A stretch of DNA of 42,823 nt, from positions 67,084 to 109,906 of the forward strand of contig DAHXOO010000006.1 of the NCBI GenBank assembly GCA_027364845.1. Direction: 5' to 3'. The notes under the pieces were generated by a model. The model was not told the DNA's origin and did not search any database. It was given only the letters and a program-made list of their open reading frames with translations. This document shows, piece by piece, positions 5,857 to 16,835 of the stretch. How positions within the stretch are numbered: position 1 is the stretch's first letter; each line of letters opens with the position of its first letter. The DNA is from Pseudomonadota bacterium. Its GTDB lineage: Bacteria > Pseudomonadota > Gammaproteobacteria > Acidiferrobacterales > UBA6901. The position numbers and the translations under genes were made by a program.

Positions 5857-6540
5857 ATCGTTGTTTCTCCGTGATTCAGATTGAGAAAGACATCATTGCA
5901 CGCCGGATTCCGTCCGCCCAACGTTCAGGTAGCCGGCGGACTGATCCCAGGATTCTTTCGAGACCCTGGTTTTGGCATCGGGTGCAGTTCTCGACACTTC
6001 GTCGAGGGTTCACTTGCGTTCGCCTCACGATATCCCACCTGACAGCGGTACCGCTGCCTTTTCTCTGGACGCTCACCACCGATGCTCTTAACATCGGCAG
6101 CTCCGAGTGGTTTGACCTCTGCGCCTGAACGCCGAGGAGCCTACCCTCATCTTGGTTACAGCATGCCATCCCACTTTCCGTGCTGAGATGACTTCTTGGC
6201 ACACTGACAGCTATGCTGACAAATGCCGCTTACCAGGCGAAGCAGGTGGCGATCGCCGATACGGTGTTCCGGAAACTGTGACGTCCAGTCGTGGGAAGTC
6301 ATACCAAAATAATGGGCCACGATGTGCAAAATGCCTTTGTGGACCTACCGAGTGATGAGCCAGAGTTCATGTCCTTGGGAGCGAAGTCTATACGAGCACA
6401 GCGGTCCGACGACACAGATACAGCGCGAGAGCTATCTGGAGCGGATCGTCGCTATGCCGCAGGCCACTGCAAAGAAGATCGCGCAGTTCATCAAACGCAA
6501 TTGCTTGTCCCGGTCAGCAGTTGATTTGACTGAATGGTGC
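5857..6540. other. gene-free stretch with intron-like and decayed sequence
   Basis: There is no intact gene in these 684 bases. The left half resembles group II intron RNA on the minus strand (annotated separately). The right half, about 6313-6510 on the plus strand, has protein-like pieces in two different frames (MGHDVQNAFVDLPSDEPEF, then ESYLERIVAMPQATAKK), as if a small gene had suffered a frameshift. No family was recognised. The region lies between the end of selD and the start of the hydroxyacid dehydrogenase and may mark a past insertion. Confidence 0.4.
5885..6170 (-). ncRNA. possible group II intron RNA remnant (domain I-like)
   Basis: On the minus strand this segment contains runs that I associate with domain I of proteobacterial group II introns: GTTAAGAGCATCGG (near 6085), then GGTGGGATATCGTGAGGCG and AACGCAAGTGAACCCTCGA (about 6005-6045), and ACCTGAACGTTGGGCGGAC (about 5910-5930). 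No reverse transcriptase/maturase frame and no domain V hairpin are visible, so if the call is right this is a truncated, dead copy. The ends are approximate. The identification is by memory of such introns and needs a covariance-model search. Confidence 0.4.
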
Positions 6541-7602
6541 TCAGCACACCGTCACTTTGGCTGGCCCAGCGTGCATGGTACCAATCACACAAGCCTGATC
6601 GAAGTCCTCGCTTCGAAATACCCCCAAAACTTCATTAGCCGTCTCCGGCGCACACGCCACCAGCAGGCCGCCGCTAGTTTGCGGGTCATTCAGCAGCTTG
6701 TGTTGCCAGGTGGGCAGGTGCACCGGGATCACGACGTCATGACCGTAGCTGTTCCAGTTACGCTCCGCGGCACCAGTAGCATAGCCTTGCTGCGCCAATT
6801 GGCGCGAAACGCTCCAAAATGGCAATTGGTCGAACTGCAAGCTTGCACCCATTCTGGAACCGTGACAGATTTCAAGCAGATGACCCAACAGAGAAAATCC
6901 GGTGACATCGGTCATCGCGTGGACGCCAGGTATTTCGGCCAGTCGGATGCCGGGAGTATTGAGCTTGGTGGTGCTGGCCAACATCTGGCGGTAGCCTTCC
7001 GCGGACAACTCTCTCTTTTTCAGCGCGGCACTCATTACTCCGACACCTAGCGGCTTGCCGAGCACGAGCAAATCACCAGCACGGGCCATGTCGTTGCGCT
7101 TGACTCGGTCCGGATGCACGATACCGAGCACCGCTAGACCGTAGATAGGCTCGGGCGCGTCTATCGAGTGACCACCCGCGATAGGGATGCCCGCAGTAGC
7201 GCACGTCGATTCACCGCCGGCAAGGATTTCCCGGATTATTTCTACCGGCAACTTGCCGATTGGCATGCCGACAATGGCAAGCGCGAAAATTGGCTTGCCG
7301 CCCATGGCATACACGTCAGAAATGGCGTTGGTGGCGGCAATGCGGCCAAAATCGAAAGCATCGTCCACGATCGGCATGAAAAAATCCGTGGTAGCAACGA
7401 TCGCTTGGCTGTCATTGAGCTTATATACGGCCGCGTCGTCGCTGGATTCTGTACCCACCAGCAGTTCCGGCGGCAGGAAGCGAGCAGCGCCAGAACTGGC
7501 CAGGATTTTGGACAACACCGCCGGCGCGATCTTGCAGCCGCAACCGCCTGCGTGAGAATACTGGGTCAGACGGATTTGTGCCGATGCCAGGGAGTCGTAC
7601 AT
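6541..7602 (-). CDS. selD: selenide, water dikinase (selenophosphate synthetase)
   Basis: SelD makes selenophosphate, the selenium donor for SelA, from selenide and ATP in the cytoplasm. The 353-residue product starts at MYDSLASAQIRLTQYSHAG, chosen because it aligns with the N-terminus of known SelD and has GAGAAGG 8 bases upstream. The catalytic GCGCK motif (Cys21, Cys23, Lys24, equivalent to Cys17, Cys19 and Lys20 of E. coli) is intact and uses cysteine, so SelD is not itself a selenoprotein here. ATP-binding and dimer regions such as VATTDFFMPIVDD, GGKPIFALAIVGMP and AGGHSIDAPEPIYG are present. It is the last gene of the selenocysteine block, 121 bases downstream of selC. Confidence 0.97.
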   Translation of the reverse strand: MYDSLASAQIRLTQYSHAGGCGCKIAPAVLSKILASSGAARFLPPELLVGTESSDDAAVYKLNDSQAIVATTDFFMPIVDDAFDFGRIAATNAISDVYAMGGKPIFALAIVGMPIGKLPVEIIREILAGGESTCATAGIPIAGGHSIDAPEPIYGLAVLGIVHPDRVKRNDMARAGDLLVLGKPLGVGVMSAALKKRELSAEGYRQMLASTTKLNTPGIRLAEIPGVHAMTDVTGFSLLGHLLEICHGSRMGASLQFDQLPFWSVSRQLAQQGYATGAAERNWNSYGHDVVIPVHLPTWQHKLLNDPQTSGGLLVACAPETANEVLGVFRSEDFDQACVIGTMHAGPAKVTVC

Positions 7603-7723
7603 TCTTAGTACCTTCTCAGATAAACCGCGCGATTCGCTAACCACGTTTTGCAGCAGAAACCCCAGGATAAAACTGCACCTCACACACTGTTTTTGCGAAA
7701 ATCCGAAGAGCCGTTTAAATAGA

Positions 7724-7820
7724 TGGCGGAAGAGAGCAGGAGTCGAACCCACCAGGGACCGACTGACGGCCCCTACCTGATTTGAAGTCAGGTCGCCCCA
7801 CCGGGGTGCGTATCTCTTCC
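7724..7820 (-). tRNA. selC: tRNA-Sec (anticodon UCA)
   Basis: The 97-base gene reads from GGAAGAGA to a matching TCTCTTCC followed by an encoded CCA. The 8-base-pair acceptor stem, long D-stem (CACCCC/GGGGCG region), anticodon loop CTTCAAA with UCA anticodon, and long variable arm (GGGGCCG/CGGTCCC) are the hallmarks of bacterial selenocysteine tRNA. It lies inside the sel operon between selB and selD, and its 5' third overlaps the end of selB, so its maturation requires processing of the long transcript or a promoter inside selB. Charged first with serine, it is converted by SelA and delivered to UGA by SelB. Confidence 0.97.
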
Positions 7821-9779
7821 ATTGTCCAGCGATCCCGGCGCGCTGACCCGATCTGCCCGGCGCACTGCCGGCCCGTCAACCAGCAGTTCGGTAACGCGCA
7901 AGCGATGCGCATCTCCGATGCGGCGCGAAGCGCCGGTTCTGTCTAGAAACTCGAGGATCTGGATGGCGAGCCGGCGCCCTGTCCCGATGTGGTCGCGCAG
8001 CTGTGCGGCCCGCACCATGCCAGTTTCGGCTGCGATCTCCGAGGCGATCGCCACGATACGCGCCACCGCTTCGCGCAAGAAAAAGCGATCGTGTACCACT
8101 TCGTAGACATCGCCCAACACCGTGACTCGCTGCATCAGCGCACGCACCTGGGCCTCGGGTGCCACGAGCACCCTTGCCAGGTCGCGTATCCACGGCGGCT
8201 GAAACGGCGTCGCTCGGAGGAGCGGCGCGACCGCGCGCCACAGCCTCTCCTCGGCGGCGGTCAGCATGACGCGGTGCCCGGGCAGGTGCAACCATGGCCC
8301 ATGCCGCGCCAGACACCCCTCGGAACAGAGCGCTTCGACCAGCACCAGAAAGGCCTCCCAGGCAAGCTGCGGATCCACCCTACGCCGCAGCGGCCGGGCC
8401 TGGATGCCGAGTAGCTCCGGAGCACTGCGGTGCTCGGCAGCGACATTATCCAATACCGCCTGCTTCAGCGACGCCCAGCACGCCGGTGCGAAGCCGAGAC
8501 GTCCGCCACCGACGGTCGCAACTGTCGTCACTGGCAATGTGCGCAACATCGATTCCATCGCATCAGGCAGCAGGTTGTGGCTACAAGCGAACGTGTTGAG
8601 ATCCACACCCGCCATCGATATTTCGAGAAGCGATGCCAGAGCGGCGCGCGGTGGCTCACGTTCCAGCGCGCCGAGCAGCGCAAGCCGCTGCGGCGTACGC
8701 ACCCGACGCGCGGGCGCGAACGGTTGCAGCACTACCCCCCCTGCCAGCGTGGTGCGCGCCGACTGATCCCGCAGAATGAAGCGGTCACCGTGCAGCACAC
8801 CGACGGGCCTGTCGAGCACGAGCTGTACGAGACCGTCGCGGCCCGGCTCCACGCCTGTCCCTTCGAGCACCGACACCCTCGCCGCGACGTTCGCAGCACC
8901 CAGATGTACATGCACGCCGGCCCAGTGTCTCAGTGCCCTGGCAGCGGAGCGCGCAACCTGTATTCGGGTATCGAAGCGCTGGCACGGCCGGTGCAGCGGC
9001 GCAGCGACCAGCCAGTCGCCGCGAGCGACATCATTTTTTTCTATTCCGGCCAGGTTGAGCGCGCAACGCTGACCGGCCTCGCCGGTTTCCGATTCCCGGT
9101 TCTGTGCGTGAATCGCGCGCACCCTCACCTCGGTTCCGGAAGGCGACACGAGTAGCCGGTCTCCGACCCGCACGCGCCCCGCGAACACTGTGCCGGTAGC
9201 GATGGTGCCGGCTCCGGTGAGGGTGAAACAACGATCGACAGCCAGGCGAAAATAGGCATCAGTGCGCCGCGCGGCAACCTGCGAAGCGCAGCGTTCCAGA
9301 TGCCGGCGCAGCGCCTCGATGCCCTCCCCGGTCACCCCGGATAGCGCGAAAATCGGACATCCGGCGAGGCGCGTGCGGCCGAGCAGCGAGTGGATATCGG
9401 ACTTGACCTCGGCCACGCGTGCGGCATCGACGCGGTCGATCTTGCTGAGCGCAACGAGACCGCTGGAGATTCCGAGAAGGTCAATGATTTCCAGGTGCTC
9501 CCGGGTCTGCGGCATCACACCGTCGTCGGCGGCCACCAGCAGCAGGACGCAGTCGATCCCGGTCGCGCCGGCGAGCATGTTGTGAACGAAACGCTCGTGT
9601 CCGGGCACGTCGACGAACCCCAGCACCCCACTATCTGGCAAAGCGTAATAGGCGAAGCCGAGATCGATCGTGATGCCGCGCTCCTTTTCTTCCTTCAGGC
9701 GGTCGGCATCCACGCCAGTGAGCGCCTTGATAAGCGTGGTCTTGCCGTGATCGATGTGGCCGGCCGTCCCTACGATCAT
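7788..9779 (-). CDS. selB: selenocysteine-specific translation elongation factor
   Basis: SelB is the GTPase that binds selenocysteyl-tRNA and the SECIS hairpin to decode UGA. The 663-residue product (E. coli 614) opens with [13 protein letters not shown] (G1, residues 4-16), then [13 protein letters not shown] (switch I/G2), DVPGHERFV (G3) and SKID (G4). The EF-Tu-like domains follow, and the C-terminal half carries the winged-helix repeats that bind SECIS, ending near VTELLVDG. The ATG overlaps the selA stop as ATGA. The last 33 bases, including its TGA stop at 7788-7790, lie inside selC; the final 40 residues look like read-through tail beyond the usual family end. Confidence 0.95.
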
Positions 9780-11257
9780 GTTTCGACCCCGCCGCCGCCC
9801 AAACGCAGCTGCCCCAGCTGCTCGACGAATTCGCGCTCGTTTTCGAGACAGCGCAAGTCGAACCTCAGGGCCCCTTCACTCACTGCGCCTATCACCGGTA
9901 CCGGCAACGCCCGGAAGGCCTCCGCCAGGCGTTTGAGGGCAGCACCTTCACCGCGCCCGCGCTTAAGGGGGGTGAGAGCCAGCGCCTGGCTCGGCAGCCG
10001 CTCCAGCGGCAGTGCACCGCTGCCAATCTGGCTGTCGCAAGGCACGATGCCTACCTCCGCGGCGCTGGCTACTGCGCGCGCGACCGCCGGCGCAACGCGC
10101 TTACACAGCCGATCGATATCGTCGAGCGGCCGCGTGAGCAACCGCAGGACCGGCAGCCGTTGAACGAGGGTTTCCGGCTGGCGATAGAGCCTGAGCACCG
10201 CTTCGAGCGCTGCGACCGTCATCTTGTCCACCCGCAGCGCGCGCCGCAGATGATTGCGTTTGATGCGCGCGACGAGTTCCGTACGCCCCACGATGATCCC
10301 GCACTGCGGGCCACCCAGGAGCTTATCGCCGCTGAAGGTAACCAGGTCGGCACCGCTGTTCAGGGAATCCTGCGGTGTCGGCTCGTGCGGTAGGTCATGC
10401 AACCCCAGATCCACCAGCGTGCCACTGCCCAGATCGACTCCGAACGCCAGCCCGTGGGAATGCGCAAGCACGCCCAGTTCCTCTTCCGAAACACCTGCCG
10501 TGAAACCTACTATAGCGAAGTTGCTGGCATGTACTTTGAACAACATGCTGGTGCGGCCGTTGATTGCCTTCTCGAAATCGGCCAGGTGGGTGCAGTTGGT
10601 GGTGCCGACCTCGTGCAGCCTGCAGCCGGCACGCGCCATGATCTCAGGCATGCGGAACGAACCACCGATCTCGATCAGCTCGCTGCGAGAGACAATCACT
10701 TCTTTGCGGAGCGCAAGCGTGTTGAGAGTCAGCAGCACTGCGGCGGCGTTGTTGTTGACCACGATTGCTGCCTCGGCGCCGGTGAGCTTGCACAGCAGCG
10801 CCTCCACATGAACGTCCCGGTCCCCGCGACCGCCCCGGTCCAGGTCATATTCGAGATTGCACGGCTGCACCATCGCCGCCTGCACCGCCGCGACAGCCTC
10901 GTCCGGCAACGGGGCACGCCCCAGGTTGGTGTGCAGTACGGTTCCGGTGAGATTGAACACACGCCGCAGCGACGGCTGCATCGTGGTGTCCAGCCGCTGG
11001 CGGATGCCGCGCGCGAGCGCTGGCTCGCACGTCGCCTCCGCGGGCAGCTCGGCGCCATCGAGGATTTCCTGGCGCATATCGCTGAGCAATGCGCGAACAA
11101 CGTGCACGACAGTGGTGTGTCCATACTGGGCGACAAGCGCTTGCACCGCAGGCAGACGCAACACGCGATCTACCGCCGGAAGGGCTACAGCATGCTGCGG
11201 ATTCTGCGCTTGGACCAAGGACTGTTCCGCCTGTTTGAGTGAAACCGCCGCCGTCAA
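9776..11257 (-). CDS. selA: L-seryl-tRNA(Sec) selenium transferase
   Basis: SelA is the PLP enzyme that converts Ser-tRNA-Sec to Sec-tRNA-Sec using selenophosphate. The product is 493 residues from the first TTG (E. coli 463). Family signatures include FNLTGTVLHTNLGRAPLP (101-118), IVVNNNAAAVLL, EVGTTNCTH, DLGSGTLVDL, and TFSGDKLLGGPQCG with the PLP-binding Lys312. The start is uncertain: TTG at 11257 has no good ribosome site, while TTG at 11218 has AGGCGG eight bases upstream and would give 480 residues. No ATG exists before the conserved LPAVDRVLR. It begins 16 bases after fdhE and overlaps selB by 4 bases. Confidence 0.95.
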   Translation of the reverse strand: MTAAVSLKQAEQSLVQAQNPQHAVALPAVDRVLRLPAVQALVAQYGHTTVVHVVRALLSDMRQEILDGAELPAEATCEPALARGIRQRLDTTMQPSLRRVFNLTGTVLHTNLGRAPLPDEAVAAVQAAMVQPCNLEYDLDRGGRGDRDVHVEALLCKLTGAEAAIVVNNNAAAVLLTLNTLALRKEVIVSRSELIEIGGSFRMPEIMARAGCRLHEVGTTNCTHLADFEKAINGRTSMLFKVHASNFAIVGFTAGVSEEELGVLAHSHGLAFGVDLGSGTLVDLGLHDLPHEPTPQDSLNSGADLVTFSGDKLLGGPQCGIIVGRTELVARIKRNHLRRALRVDKMTVAALEAVLRLYRQPETLVQRLPVLRLLTRPLDDIDRLCKRVAPAVARAVASAAEVGIVPCDSQIGSGALPLERLPSQALALTPLKRGRGEGAALKRLAEAFRALPVPVIGAVSEGALRFDLRCLENEREFVEQLGQLRLGGGGVET

Positions 11258-11272
11258 GCGGCAATTATCGAA

Positions 11273-12190
11273 TCAAGCCGATCCTCCCAACAAAAAGAAA
11301 TTCACACCGCTGCGAGCGATACCCCGCTCCGCCATCAACACATCCAGGGCTACGCTCGCGACGTCGTCCGCGACCGCCTCGACCGCAGGGTCCTTTTCCA
11401 TGTAAAAGATCTTAAGGTAGTTGCCACAAGCGTCGCAATTCTCCGCCTTTACCGCACCGCTACTGCCCTCGATCCCGTAATAGCTGATGCCTTTGGTGGT
11501 CTGGCAATAGGCGCATTTGATGCGCACTTCATGCCACTGGGACCCGCACAGGGAACAGCTGAGGTAGCGCAGACCCTGGTCCGCTCCGCCGATGCGCACC
11601 ACACTCGCCACCGGTTCCGATCCGCACACCGGGCACAGATGAGGCGCTTCCGGTGGCGCCACGACGCCGGGCGACAGGCTGGTGGCCATGTGCAGCCAGT
11701 ACACCTGCAACGCTGCCGCAACGAACGGCGCACTGGCACGGTCGATCCGGCCGAAATCACCGGACAACAGCCCCGCGGCCAGTCCTTCGAGGGTCTGGTC
11801 TTCAGCCCGGCCCAGCCTCTCGGCCGCCGCCCGCGCCATCTCGGGAAACGCCGACGTCACCACCTCCGCGACCAGCTGCCGCAGCACTGCGCGCCAAGCC
11901 GGCGCGCGGCTCCATCCCTGTATGCCCAGCGGCGGCAGGCCATGCTCGCGACAGCGCCGCAGCACTTCGGCGTCCGGCATCGGCACGTTGCGTACCAGAG
12001 GGAGCGCCTCGTGCTGCGCGCGCGCAATGGTGGCGAGAAACCGCAGGTACTCGCCCAGGGCGTGGCCCTCGGACAAGGCGCTCAGGCGCTGTGCGCGCTG
12101 ATCGAACAGCGAGCGCTCCGGCAGACGCAGCATAGGCAACTCGCCCGCGGGCGGCTCGATGGTCCCGGGCTCGATGAGGTCTGCGGTCAT
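11273..12190 (-). CDS. fdhE: formate dehydrogenase accessory protein FdhE
   Basis: FdhE is a cytoplasmic rubredoxin-like protein needed for maturation of respiratory, Tat-exported formate dehydrogenases; it interacts with the catalytic subunit. The 305-residue product carries four CxxC pairs in the family pattern: CPVC (186-189), CSLC (212-215), CAYC (226-229) and CDAC (252-255), as expected for iron binding. The N-terminal helical half is also FdhE-like. Its ATG overlaps the stop of the cytochrome subunit gene (ATGA), and selA follows after 16 bases, so it sits exactly between the enzyme and the selenium genes in one operon. Confidence 0.95.
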   Translation of the reverse strand: MTADLIEPGTIEPPAGELPMLRLPERSLFDQRAQRLSALSEGHALGEYLRFLATIARAQHEALPLVRNVPMPDAEVLRRCREHGLPPLGIQGWSRAPAWRAVLRQLVAEVVTSAFPEMARAAAERLGRAEDQTLEGLAAGLLSGDFGRIDRASAPFVAAALQVYWLHMATSLSPGVVAPPEAPHLCPVCGSEPVASVVRIGGADQGLRYLSCSLCGSQWHEVRIKCAYCQTTKGISYYGIEGSSGAVKAENCDACGNYLKIFYMEKDPAVEAVADDVASVALDVLMAERGIARSGVNFFLLGGSA

Positions 12191-13772: not shown

Positions 13773-16700
13773 TCACGCCTTCTCGATGTCGACGATAAAC
13801 GACTTGAACTCGGGCGTCTGCACGTTCGCGTCTCCGACAAACGGGGTTAGGGTGTTGGCGATGTAGCCGTTCTTGGCGACACCCTTGAATCCCCAGTGGA
13901 TCGGTACGCCCACCGTATGCACGATCTTTCCGTCCACTTTAAGCGGCATGATTCGCTTGGTGACAACGGCTACCGCCTTAATATGTCCACGGTTCGAGCG
14001 CACCATGACCCGGTCTCCGGACTTGATTCCCTTTTCTTTGGCCAGTACCTCTCCGACTTCGACGAACTGCTCCGGCTGCAGCACCGCATTGATTAGCGCG
14101 TGCTTGGTCCAGAAGTGGAAGTGCTCAGTTAGGCGGTAGGTCGTCGCCGCATAGGGGTAATCCGTCGACTTGCCGAATGCCTCGAGATCGTCTCGGAAGA
14201 CGCGCGCCGCCGGGTTGGAGACCACTTGCCGATGCAGCGGGTTGGTATCGATCGGCGTCTCGAACGGTTCGTAGTGTTCGGGGAACGGTCCATCCACCAC
14301 GTTGCCGAGCGTGAAAAACCGCGCCACGCCTTCGGGCAACATGATAAATGGACCCATCCCCTCCGCCGGCGGGGAATCGGGCTTGAAGTCCGGAACATCG
14401 AAACCCACCCAGGCGCGACCGTTCCAGTGAATCAGGTTACGCTTGATCGGATCCCATGGCCGTCCGGACGGGTTGCAGGACGCACGGTTGTAGAGGATGC
14501 GGCGGTTGGCCGGCCACGCGAAGGCCCAGCCCAGCGTCTCCCCAAGCCCGGATGGGTCGGCAGTATCACGCCGTGCCATCATGTTGCCTTTCTCGGTCCA
14601 GCATCCGGCGAAGATCCAGCAGCCGCAGGCGGTGGTACCGTCGTCGCGCAGCTGTAGGAAGCCGTCAAGCTGTTCACCGCGCTTCTTGATCACCTTGGTC
14701 TTGTTCTTTGGGTCGGTCAGGTCGGCAAGCGCGCTGCCGTTGTATTCCTTGGCAATTTCCTCCGGATGCGGGCGGTATGGGATGGCATAATCCCAAGTCA
14801 GATTCCGCACCGGGTCTGAAAATGCTCCGCCATGCTTGCGATACAGCTCACGGATCCGCAGGAAGATGCCGGCGACAATTTCGGTGTCCGACTTGCCCTC
14901 TCCCGGCGGATCCTGCCCCTTCCAATGCCATTGCATCCAGCGCCCGCTGTTGACTAGCGAACCGTCCTCTTCGGCAAAACAGCCCGATGGTAACCGAAAG
15001 ACCTCGGTGGCAATCTTCGCGCTATCAACGTCGTTGAACTCGCCGAAGTTACGCCAGAATTCCGAGGTTTCGGTGGCAAGCGGATCGATCACCACAAGAT
15101 ACTTCAGCTTAGCCAGAGCTCCACCGATCTTGGCCTTGTTCGGGAACGCCGCGAGTGGATTAAACCCCTGGCAGAGGTATCCATTCAGCTTTCCGTTGTG
15201 CATGTCCTCGAACACTTGCAGGACATCGTGGACCTTGTCGAGCTTGGGCAGCCAGTCATAGCAGAAGTTGTTTTCCTTGGTCGCAGCTGCGCCATACCAG
15301 GCCTTCATCAGGCTCACATGGAACTTGCCGTAGTTCTGCCAGAACGACAGCTGGTGAGGCCGCAGTGGCTTGAACGCGCGCGCCGCGATGTACTTCTTGA
15401 AGTCGACTTCCGATTCACCGGGCAGTGTCATGTAGCCCGGCAGCAGGTTCGAAAGCAGTCCAAGGTCGGTGAGACCCTGGATGTTCGAATGTCCGCGCAG
15501 GGCATTCACTCCCCCGCCCGGCATGCCGATGTTGCCGAGAAGCAGCTGCACCATAGCGGCGGTGCGGATCATCTGCGTGCCGACGGTGTGTTGCGTCCAG
15601 CCGAGCGCGTACATGAAGGTTGCGGTCCGGTCAGATGTGCTCGTCTCAGCAATAAGCCCGCACACTCTGAGGAACGTATCCTTCGGCGTACCGCAGATGT
15701 TCTCCACCACCTCGGGCGTGTAACGCGCATAATGCTGCTTCATGAGATTGAACACGCACCGTGGATGCGTGAGTGTCGGGTCAACCTTGGCGTAGCCGTC
15801 GGCTCCGATCTCGTACATCCATGAACTCTTGTCGTAGCTTCTCGTTTTCGGCTGATAACCGGAAAACAACCCATCCTTGAACAGATAGTCCGAACGCACG
15901 ATGAATCCGGCGTCGGTATACGCCTTGACATACTCGTGCTGAATCTTGTCGTGCGTAAGCAGGTAGTTGATGACTCCGCCGAGAAAGGCGATGTCGGTGC
16001 CGGTACGTAGGGGGGCGTAATAATCGGCCACCGCTGCGGAGCGGGTAAAGCGCGGATCGATGACTACAAGCTTGGCCTTGTTATGCGCCTTAGCTTCGGT
16101 CACCCATTTGAATCCGCACGGGTGCGCCTCGGCGGCGTTGCCGCCCATGATGATGACAAGGTTGGCATTCTTGATGTCAACCCAGTGATTGGTCATCGCA
16201 CCGCGACCGAACGTCGGGGCAAGACTTGCCACCGTAGGTCCGTGTCAGACGCGCGCCTGATTGTCGAACGCCAGTATACCGAGCGAGCGGACGACCTTGT
16301 GGGTAAGATAACCGCTCTCGTTGCTCGATGCCGAGGCCGCCAGGAAACCGGTCGAAAGCCATCGGTTCACCGGGACGCCCTCGGCGTTCTGGCCTATGAA
16401 GTTCTTGTCCCGGTCATCCTTCATGAGCCGTGCGATGCGATCGAAGGCTTCGTCCCACGAAATGCGCTTCCATTCGCTGGCCCCAGGCGCGCGGTATTCC
16501 GGGTATCGGAGCCGGTCCGCGCTGTGCACGAAATCGAGCAGCCCCGCGCCCTTGGGGCAGAGTGTGCCACGACTGACCGGATGGTCAGGATCGCCTTCGA
16601 TATGGATTATGGAACTTGGGGCGTTCTTGGCCTTGTCGCCCAAGCCGTACAAGATGAGACCACAACTCACGGAACAATATGGACAGGTATTGCGGGTCTC

Positions 16701-16835
16701 GGTGGTGCGGGTCAGCTTGAACTCACGGGCTTCCGCAAGCGCCGCCGCTGGAGAAAATCCGAGCACTGCGATGCTTGATGCCCCCAACCCTGCCGCACCA
16801 AGCTTCAGAAACTGACGCCTGGAGATCGATACCAT
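13773..16835 (-). CDS. fdnG: formate dehydrogenase alpha subunit, selenocysteine-containing (UGA read through)
   Basis: The catalytic molybdenum/tungsten subunit, oxidising formate to CO2 outside the cytoplasmic membrane. It has a Tat signal (SRRQFLK, then a hydrophobic stretch and AALA), a [4Fe-4S] site at Cys51, Cys54, Cys58 and Cys93, and the molybdopterin domains. An in-frame TGA at 16245-16247 falls exactly where E. coli FdnG has Sec196 (NQARV-U-HGPTVASL); here it is residue 197. Both flanks continue the same protein, giving 1020 residues against 1015 in E. coli, so automated callers will split it into 16245-16835 and 13773-16232. The C-terminal LTPFVGDANVQTPEFKSF is family-typical. AGGAG lies 7 bases before the ATG. 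Confidence 0.97.
16208..16247 (-). promoter_or_regulatory. SECIS-like hairpin with Sec UGA codon
   Basis: Directly after the UGA (16245-16247), the mRNA can fold around GGCAAGUCUUGCC (16218-16230): a 5-base-pair stem with a GUC loop, with a partial lower stem. The spacing from the UGA and the loop region AGUCU resemble the E. coli fdnG SECIS, which SelB binds. Family resemblance of the whole coding region means the hairpin is also constrained by protein sequence. Confidence 0.8.

Follow-up and report, generated by a model that had tools for sequence, protein, structure and literature searches.

A selB reading frame that ends within the anticodon stem of the adjoining tRNA-Sec gene: a further case of selB-selC overlap

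The window analysed here, a stretch of 42,823 nucleotides taken as a whole, is part of a 184-contig draft assembly and carries a compact cluster of eight formate dehydrogenase and selenocysteine genes on one strand, in the order fdnG(Sec)-fdnH-fdnI-fdhE-selA-selB-selC-selD, with selC as the seventh of the eight. From fdnG to selD the successive gaps are 11, 45, -4, 15, -4, -33 and 121 bases. The genes fdnG, fdnH and fdnI are named from reading frames, SECIS family and gene order rather than from a family search. The fdnG frame is open on either side of a UGA(Sec) codon at 16247-16245, starting from an ATG at 16835, and the SECIS_3 element of the Sec-containing formate dehydrogenase is found at 16192..16250 on the minus strand (Rfam RF01989, 81.3 bits). 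Also on the minus strand are fdhE (11273..12190; TIGR01562, E 7.6e-93), selA (9776..11257; TIGR00474, E 1.2e-169, start codon provisional) and selD (6541..7602; NF002098, E 3.5e-160, start set by alignment). The ATG of selD, at 7602, lies 121 bases past the 3' end of the tRNA, is preceded by an AAGG-type leader, and is independent of the tRNA bases.

Some other elements were observed around this cluster. Just downstream of selD, at 6037-6148 on the minus strand, RF01999 picks up a group II intron domain (82 bits); a long intron ORF is missing alongside, and the element looks like an intron remnant. A second selD-like domain is encoded away from the sel cluster, both in the window's genome (L153, G000:C140:73798-74712) and in that of a same-genus relative, G002 (L152, G002:C69:82971-83885); both domains sit in frames of about 750-770 amino acids and possibly represent an oxidoreductase-SelD fusion belonging to another selenium trait. 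A match to the sX4 sRNA at 7668-7828 was dismissed, given its score of 19.5 against a gathering score of 70.

The selB gene (7788..9779, minus strand) is read from 9779 to 7788 and encodes 663 amino acids, its ATG overlapping the selA stop by 4 bases. The frame is that of a complete SelB, as TIGR00475, an NCBIfam equivalog, covers residues 1-628 (E 1.9e-141) and the Pfam GTPase, beta-barrel and winged-helix domains are present, the last of these (SelB-wing_3) ending at residue 627. Residues 628-653 (7821..7898, minus strand) form a linker leading from the last winged-helix domain to the tRNA. Within this same frame, and on the same strand, begins a complete tRNA-Sec(UCA) gene, selC (7724..7820, minus strand), of 97 nt with an encoded CCA, which is identified by ARAGORN as tRNA-SeC(tca) and by the Rfam tRNA-Sec model RF01852 at 7820-7728 (68.2 bits against a gathering score of 47), with a full cloverleaf as its predicted fold (-46.6 kcal/mol).

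The two genes share 33 bases (7788..7820, minus strand), in which selB codons 654-663 and the stop correspond to tRNA nt 1-33, reading GGA AGA GAT ACG CAC CCC GGT GGG GCG ACC TGA. The tRNA is thus read from its first GGA, so that the C-terminal extension of SelB opens with Gly. The selB stop, UGA at 7790-7788 in the ORF list, is tRNA nt 31-33, and the anticodon UCA (7783..7785, minus strand; nt 36-38 according to ARAGORN) lies two bases past it. In the predicted fold, nt 28-33 (ACCUGA) pair with nt 41-46 (UCAGGU), which places the UGA, paired with UCA at 41-43, on the 5' strand of the anticodon stem, in the half nearer the loop. A further in-frame UAG is present at nt 46-48 (7773..7775, minus strand). 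Sequence comparison thus establishes both the anatomy of the overlap and its frame. An earlier note on this DNA, made from the letters and ORFs, had placed the selB stop at TGA 7788-7790, had described the last 33 bases of selB as the 5' part of selC, and had situated the stop in the anticodon arm close to the UCA anticodon; all its coordinates are right, the ORF list, ARAGORN, Rfam and the sequence itself agreeing with it and the fold putting the UGA two bases before the anticodon.

The nearest SelB proteins, 62-64% identical, are encoded by three Nitrospirae-labelled MAGs (L054, L056 and L057) and one Rhodocyclales-labelled MAG (L055). In L054, L055 and L057 selB overlaps selC, entering the tRNA in the same frame as in the window and ending at a TAA at nt 46-48, while in L056 a TAG 6 nt before the tRNA leaves the two genes without overlap. 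The same-genus relative G002 shares with the window both the frame and the UGA at nt 31-33. In the window, G002 and all four of these loci exactly 30 codons separate the AHR motif from the tRNA. In the SelB tree, the window and G002 are sister to L054-L057 (SH-aLRT 99, by a quick method with six rows). At the level of sequence, common ancestry of these overlaps is established by such comparisons. The locus L055 lies on a 4.6-kb contig and its cassette is nearly the same as that of the Nitrospirae MAGs, for which misbinning or a recent transfer may be responsible.

These assemblies also bear on whether a sequencing or assembly error conceals an earlier selB stop, the circumstance that the earlier note had named as fatal to its description. 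The window does come from a 184-contig draft; nevertheless, the separately assembled G002 has the same frame and the same UGA from the linker on, and the assemblies of three relatives enter the tRNA in the same frame, so that the suspicion is contradicted by independent assemblies and an error of this kind is hardly credible.

The SelB of the window lies far in the tree from those of the same-order genomes G021, G025 and G042 (about 40% identical), where the order is selB, selD and then tRNA-Sec. The host rpoB, on the other hand, is 83% identical to that of G021 and 56% identical to those of the Nitrospirae MAGs. Given this tree placement and these rpoB identities, the sel cassette probably moved between phyla. 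The cassette of same-order genomes (L135, L136 and L137), arranged selA-selB-selD-selC and with SelB about 40% identical, is unrelated to that of the window, which implies that this taxonomic order gained sel genes on more than one occasion.

In the case of G002, the sel locus (L134, 8096-10412) is a relic. Its homology to the window is confined to the end of selA together with selB and selC, and stops 3 bases past the tRNA; selA is truncated, one extra base in an A run throws selB out of frame (A8, where the window has A7), no selD adjoins the locus, and no SECIS_3 match was found in the G002 genome. The conservation of the overlap in G002 was consequently rejected as proof of function. The A run lies near position 9040 of the window (selB codons about 245-250), where seven A residues occur in GAA AAA AAT and G002 has eight, out of frame; in such a slippery run the difference could reflect assembly error, decay or slippage.

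The identity of the stop codon can be traced to the tRNA. The codon at nt 31-33 and the bases that pair with it are AGA/TCT in L054 and L056, GGA/TCC in L055 and L057, and TGA/TCA in the window and G002. One anticodon-stem pair has therefore been exchanged on both sides, from A-U or G-C in the sister clade to U-A in the window, and the stem stays paired after the exchange. Judged from these alignments, the exchanged pair is a sufficient explanation for the UGA at nt 31-33. The tRNA of the window's group also has an extra D-arm base with respect to the Rfam consensus, and because of this base the selB frame meets a stop in the anticodon arm; in alphaproteobacterial tRNA-Sec, which lacks it, the same starting frame is open through the tRNA.

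The earlier note had also attached meaning to the stop being UGA, the codon that SelB itself recodes. A related explanation takes the UGA as a sensor, SelB with Sec-tRNA-Sec reading through its own stop and so gaining a few residues under ample selenium, and it may draw on the use of UGA as a Sec codon in this organism's formate dehydrogenase. Nevertheless, no SECIS-like Rfam match occurs within 7500-8000 at E up to 5, while the fdnG element scores 81.3 bits, and readthrough of the selB UGA would add only U-LQIR, five residues, before the UAG. The sister clade moreover uses UAA at nt 46-48, and the exchanged stem pair already accounts for the UGA. A role of the selB UGA as a Sec codon was rejected for these reasons; the exchanged pair and the lack of a SECIS within that interval argue, from the sequence side, against a special meaning of the codon, that proposal of the earlier note was given up, and the sensor explanation is very improbable.

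The C-terminal extension itself offers few signs of importance. An AlphaFold2 model of residues 440-663 places most of the domains at pLDDT >90; values drop to about 30-45 from residue 634 onward and are about 30 in the extension, which is predicted to be disordered. For the last 25 codons before the tRNA, taken as the linker, pN/pS values in six pairs of the Nitrospirae clade are 0.43, 1.07, 2.43, 1.14, 0.78 and 1.37, against 0.19-0.53 in the preceding 100 codons, whereas the pair of the window and G002 gives 0.37 (8 synonymous and 7 nonsynonymous changes) against 0.24; the numbers are small, the pairs are not independent and G002 is decaying. These ratios suggest weak or no constraint on the peptide sequence of the linker, although some coding constraint may act in the pair of the window and G002. 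Near-neutral change in the Nitrospirae-clade linkers and disorder in the model leave a conserved C-terminal peptide unsupported. Furthermore, the TAG that precedes the tRNA by 6 nt in L056 indicates that the overlap is dispensable.

Overlap is uncommon. Of 41 sampled Pseudomonadota loci in which selB is directly followed by a co-oriented selC, four show it: the window, with its stop at nt 31-33, L183, with its stop at nt 46-48, and L166 and L189, in which the frame runs through the whole tRNA. A stop at nt 31 is found only in the window among these 41. Gaps of 0-50 nt between selB and selC are frequent, and in L044 the selB stop touches the tRNA, so that with such short distances the loss of one stop codon would be enough to create an overlap. 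The betaproteobacterial loci L089 and L129 overlap with a TGA at nt 46-48 in a separate region of the tree, the alphaproteobacterial nested cases form another SelB group, and parsimony on the SelB tree gives four changes of overlap state. A further partial overlap outside the window's group, with its stop near nt 46-48, was seen in L086. A preference for frame 1 among overlaps was also considered; resting on perhaps three separate origins, it carries too little weight for interpretation.

Overlaps of this kind were described by Mukai (2021, Int J Mol Sci 22:4605, PMC8124441) in Alphaproteobacteria, Gammaproteobacteria and Nitrospirae, in nested and partial forms, with the proposal that tRNA processing generates a nonstop selB mRNA. 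The proposal is repeated in reviews of 2022 and 2026, and no experimental test of it was found in our literature search. The window resembles the partial overlaps of groundwater Nitrospirae, Dyella and Luteibacter (PMC8124441) in its co-oriented genes and in the consequence proposed for them. The partial overlaps of Dyella and Luteibacter stop at nt 46-48, a stop and frame shared by L054, L055 and L057, whereas the window stops at UGA nt 31-33 and yet keeps the in-frame UAG at 46-48; its host also belongs to another lineage, of the same GTDB-type class as the sampled gammaproteobacterial genomes, judging by grouping and rpoB. As with the selC nested within selB in Alphaproteobacteria (PMC8124441), the window reads the first GGA and has a tRNA-encoded C-terminal extension. 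In the nested type, however, the frame has no stop within the tRNA and frequently runs into the next ORF, while in the window the longer D arm shifts the frame to the anticodon-arm stop and selD follows 121 bases on. E. coli SelB autoregulation through a SECIS-like element (Thanbichler and Boeck 2002, as cited in PMC8124441) is likewise proposed to keep SelB low with respect to Sec-tRNA-Sec; as summarised there, it is translational repression that, unlike the arrangement in the window, involves no selC overlap.

The reading that we consider rather probable is that of a tolerated, horizontally inherited overlap in which selB translation and tRNA processing are in passive competition. The ancestor shared with the Nitrospirae-type cassettes would have had a selB without a stop before selC, running to nt 46-48, and in the window's lineage the exchange of an anticodon-stem pair, purine-pyrimidine to U-A, would have made the UGA and left SelB five residues shorter. 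We infer that selB and selC are co-transcribed and that the shared RNA is processed, with an effect on SelB; the processing step follows from what is known of tRNA processing. An uncut transcript would be translatable into full-length SelB, while cleavage by RNase P at tRNA nt 1 (7820/7821) would remove the last 10 selB codons and the stop, making the selB part a nonstop message and a substrate for ribosome rescue and decay. A tmRNA was found both in the window genome and in G002, so that nonstop rescue would be available. The coupling would then be passive competition, its size set by the share of selC that comes from the long transcript. The physical logic of the earlier note, that processing of the tRNA breaks the selB mRNA, is thus retained, and the regulatory link that it suggested is weakened by the overlap-free, hence dispensable, state in L056.

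Alternatively, according to the Mukai model, the overlap could be a selected switch in which folding and processing of the tRNA do away with the selB stop, so that one transcript yields either SelB or tRNA-Sec and SelB is kept low with respect to tRNA-Sec. The rationale is published (PMC8124441), a tmRNA is present, and overlaps occur in several SelB lineages, with the tRNA always read from its GGA; such recurrence in separate lineages, together with retention in most alphaproteobacterial members, may mean selection. On the other hand, the overlap is absent from L056 and from most relatives, linker evolution in the Nitrospirae clade is close to neutral, and the only same-genus relative that keeps the pair has a truncated selA and a frameshifted selB, so that conservation there says little. 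A selected switch is consequently possible, albeit on the unlikely side. A more doubtful reading has translation gating the maturation of tRNA-Sec, as a ribosome ending at nt 31-33 would cover the anticodon arm and block folding and cutting; equally doubtful is its corollary, that SelB synthesis and tRNA-Sec production would be mutually exclusive in time and that the position of the stop in the anticodon stem would tune the competition.

The size of any coupling also depends on where selC transcription begins. E. coli selC is transcribed on its own, and here too tRNA-Sec could come mainly from a promoter in the 3' end of selB, the long transcript being rarely cut and the overlap inconsequential; in this GC-rich region, promoters invisible to a scan may be used. 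Nevertheless, no sigma-70-like promoter was found in a scan of 7400-9900, such scans being weak evidence, and in the last 72 bases before the tRNA 14 of the 72 differ between the window and G002, which matches the roughly 18% across the rest of selB, so no conserved promoter block is visible. A separate promoter of this kind seems, all considered, improbable.

Both the arrangement and its proposed consequence have already been published, and the window is a further case of Mukai-type overlap. Its novelty is small and consists in a stop within the anticodon stem, compared with nt 46-48 in the sister clade and in the published partial overlaps; it adds a case in which the stop codon of a protein was moved by an exchanged tRNA stem pair. 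Together with the overlap-free L056, the window provides natural variants for a direct test of the published hypothesis. If the overlap does set the ratio of SelB to tRNA-Sec, an elongation factor would here be matched to its only tRNA by very simple means, and the shared segment would be one of the rare stretches of bacterial RNA that are both the end of a message and the start of a tRNA.
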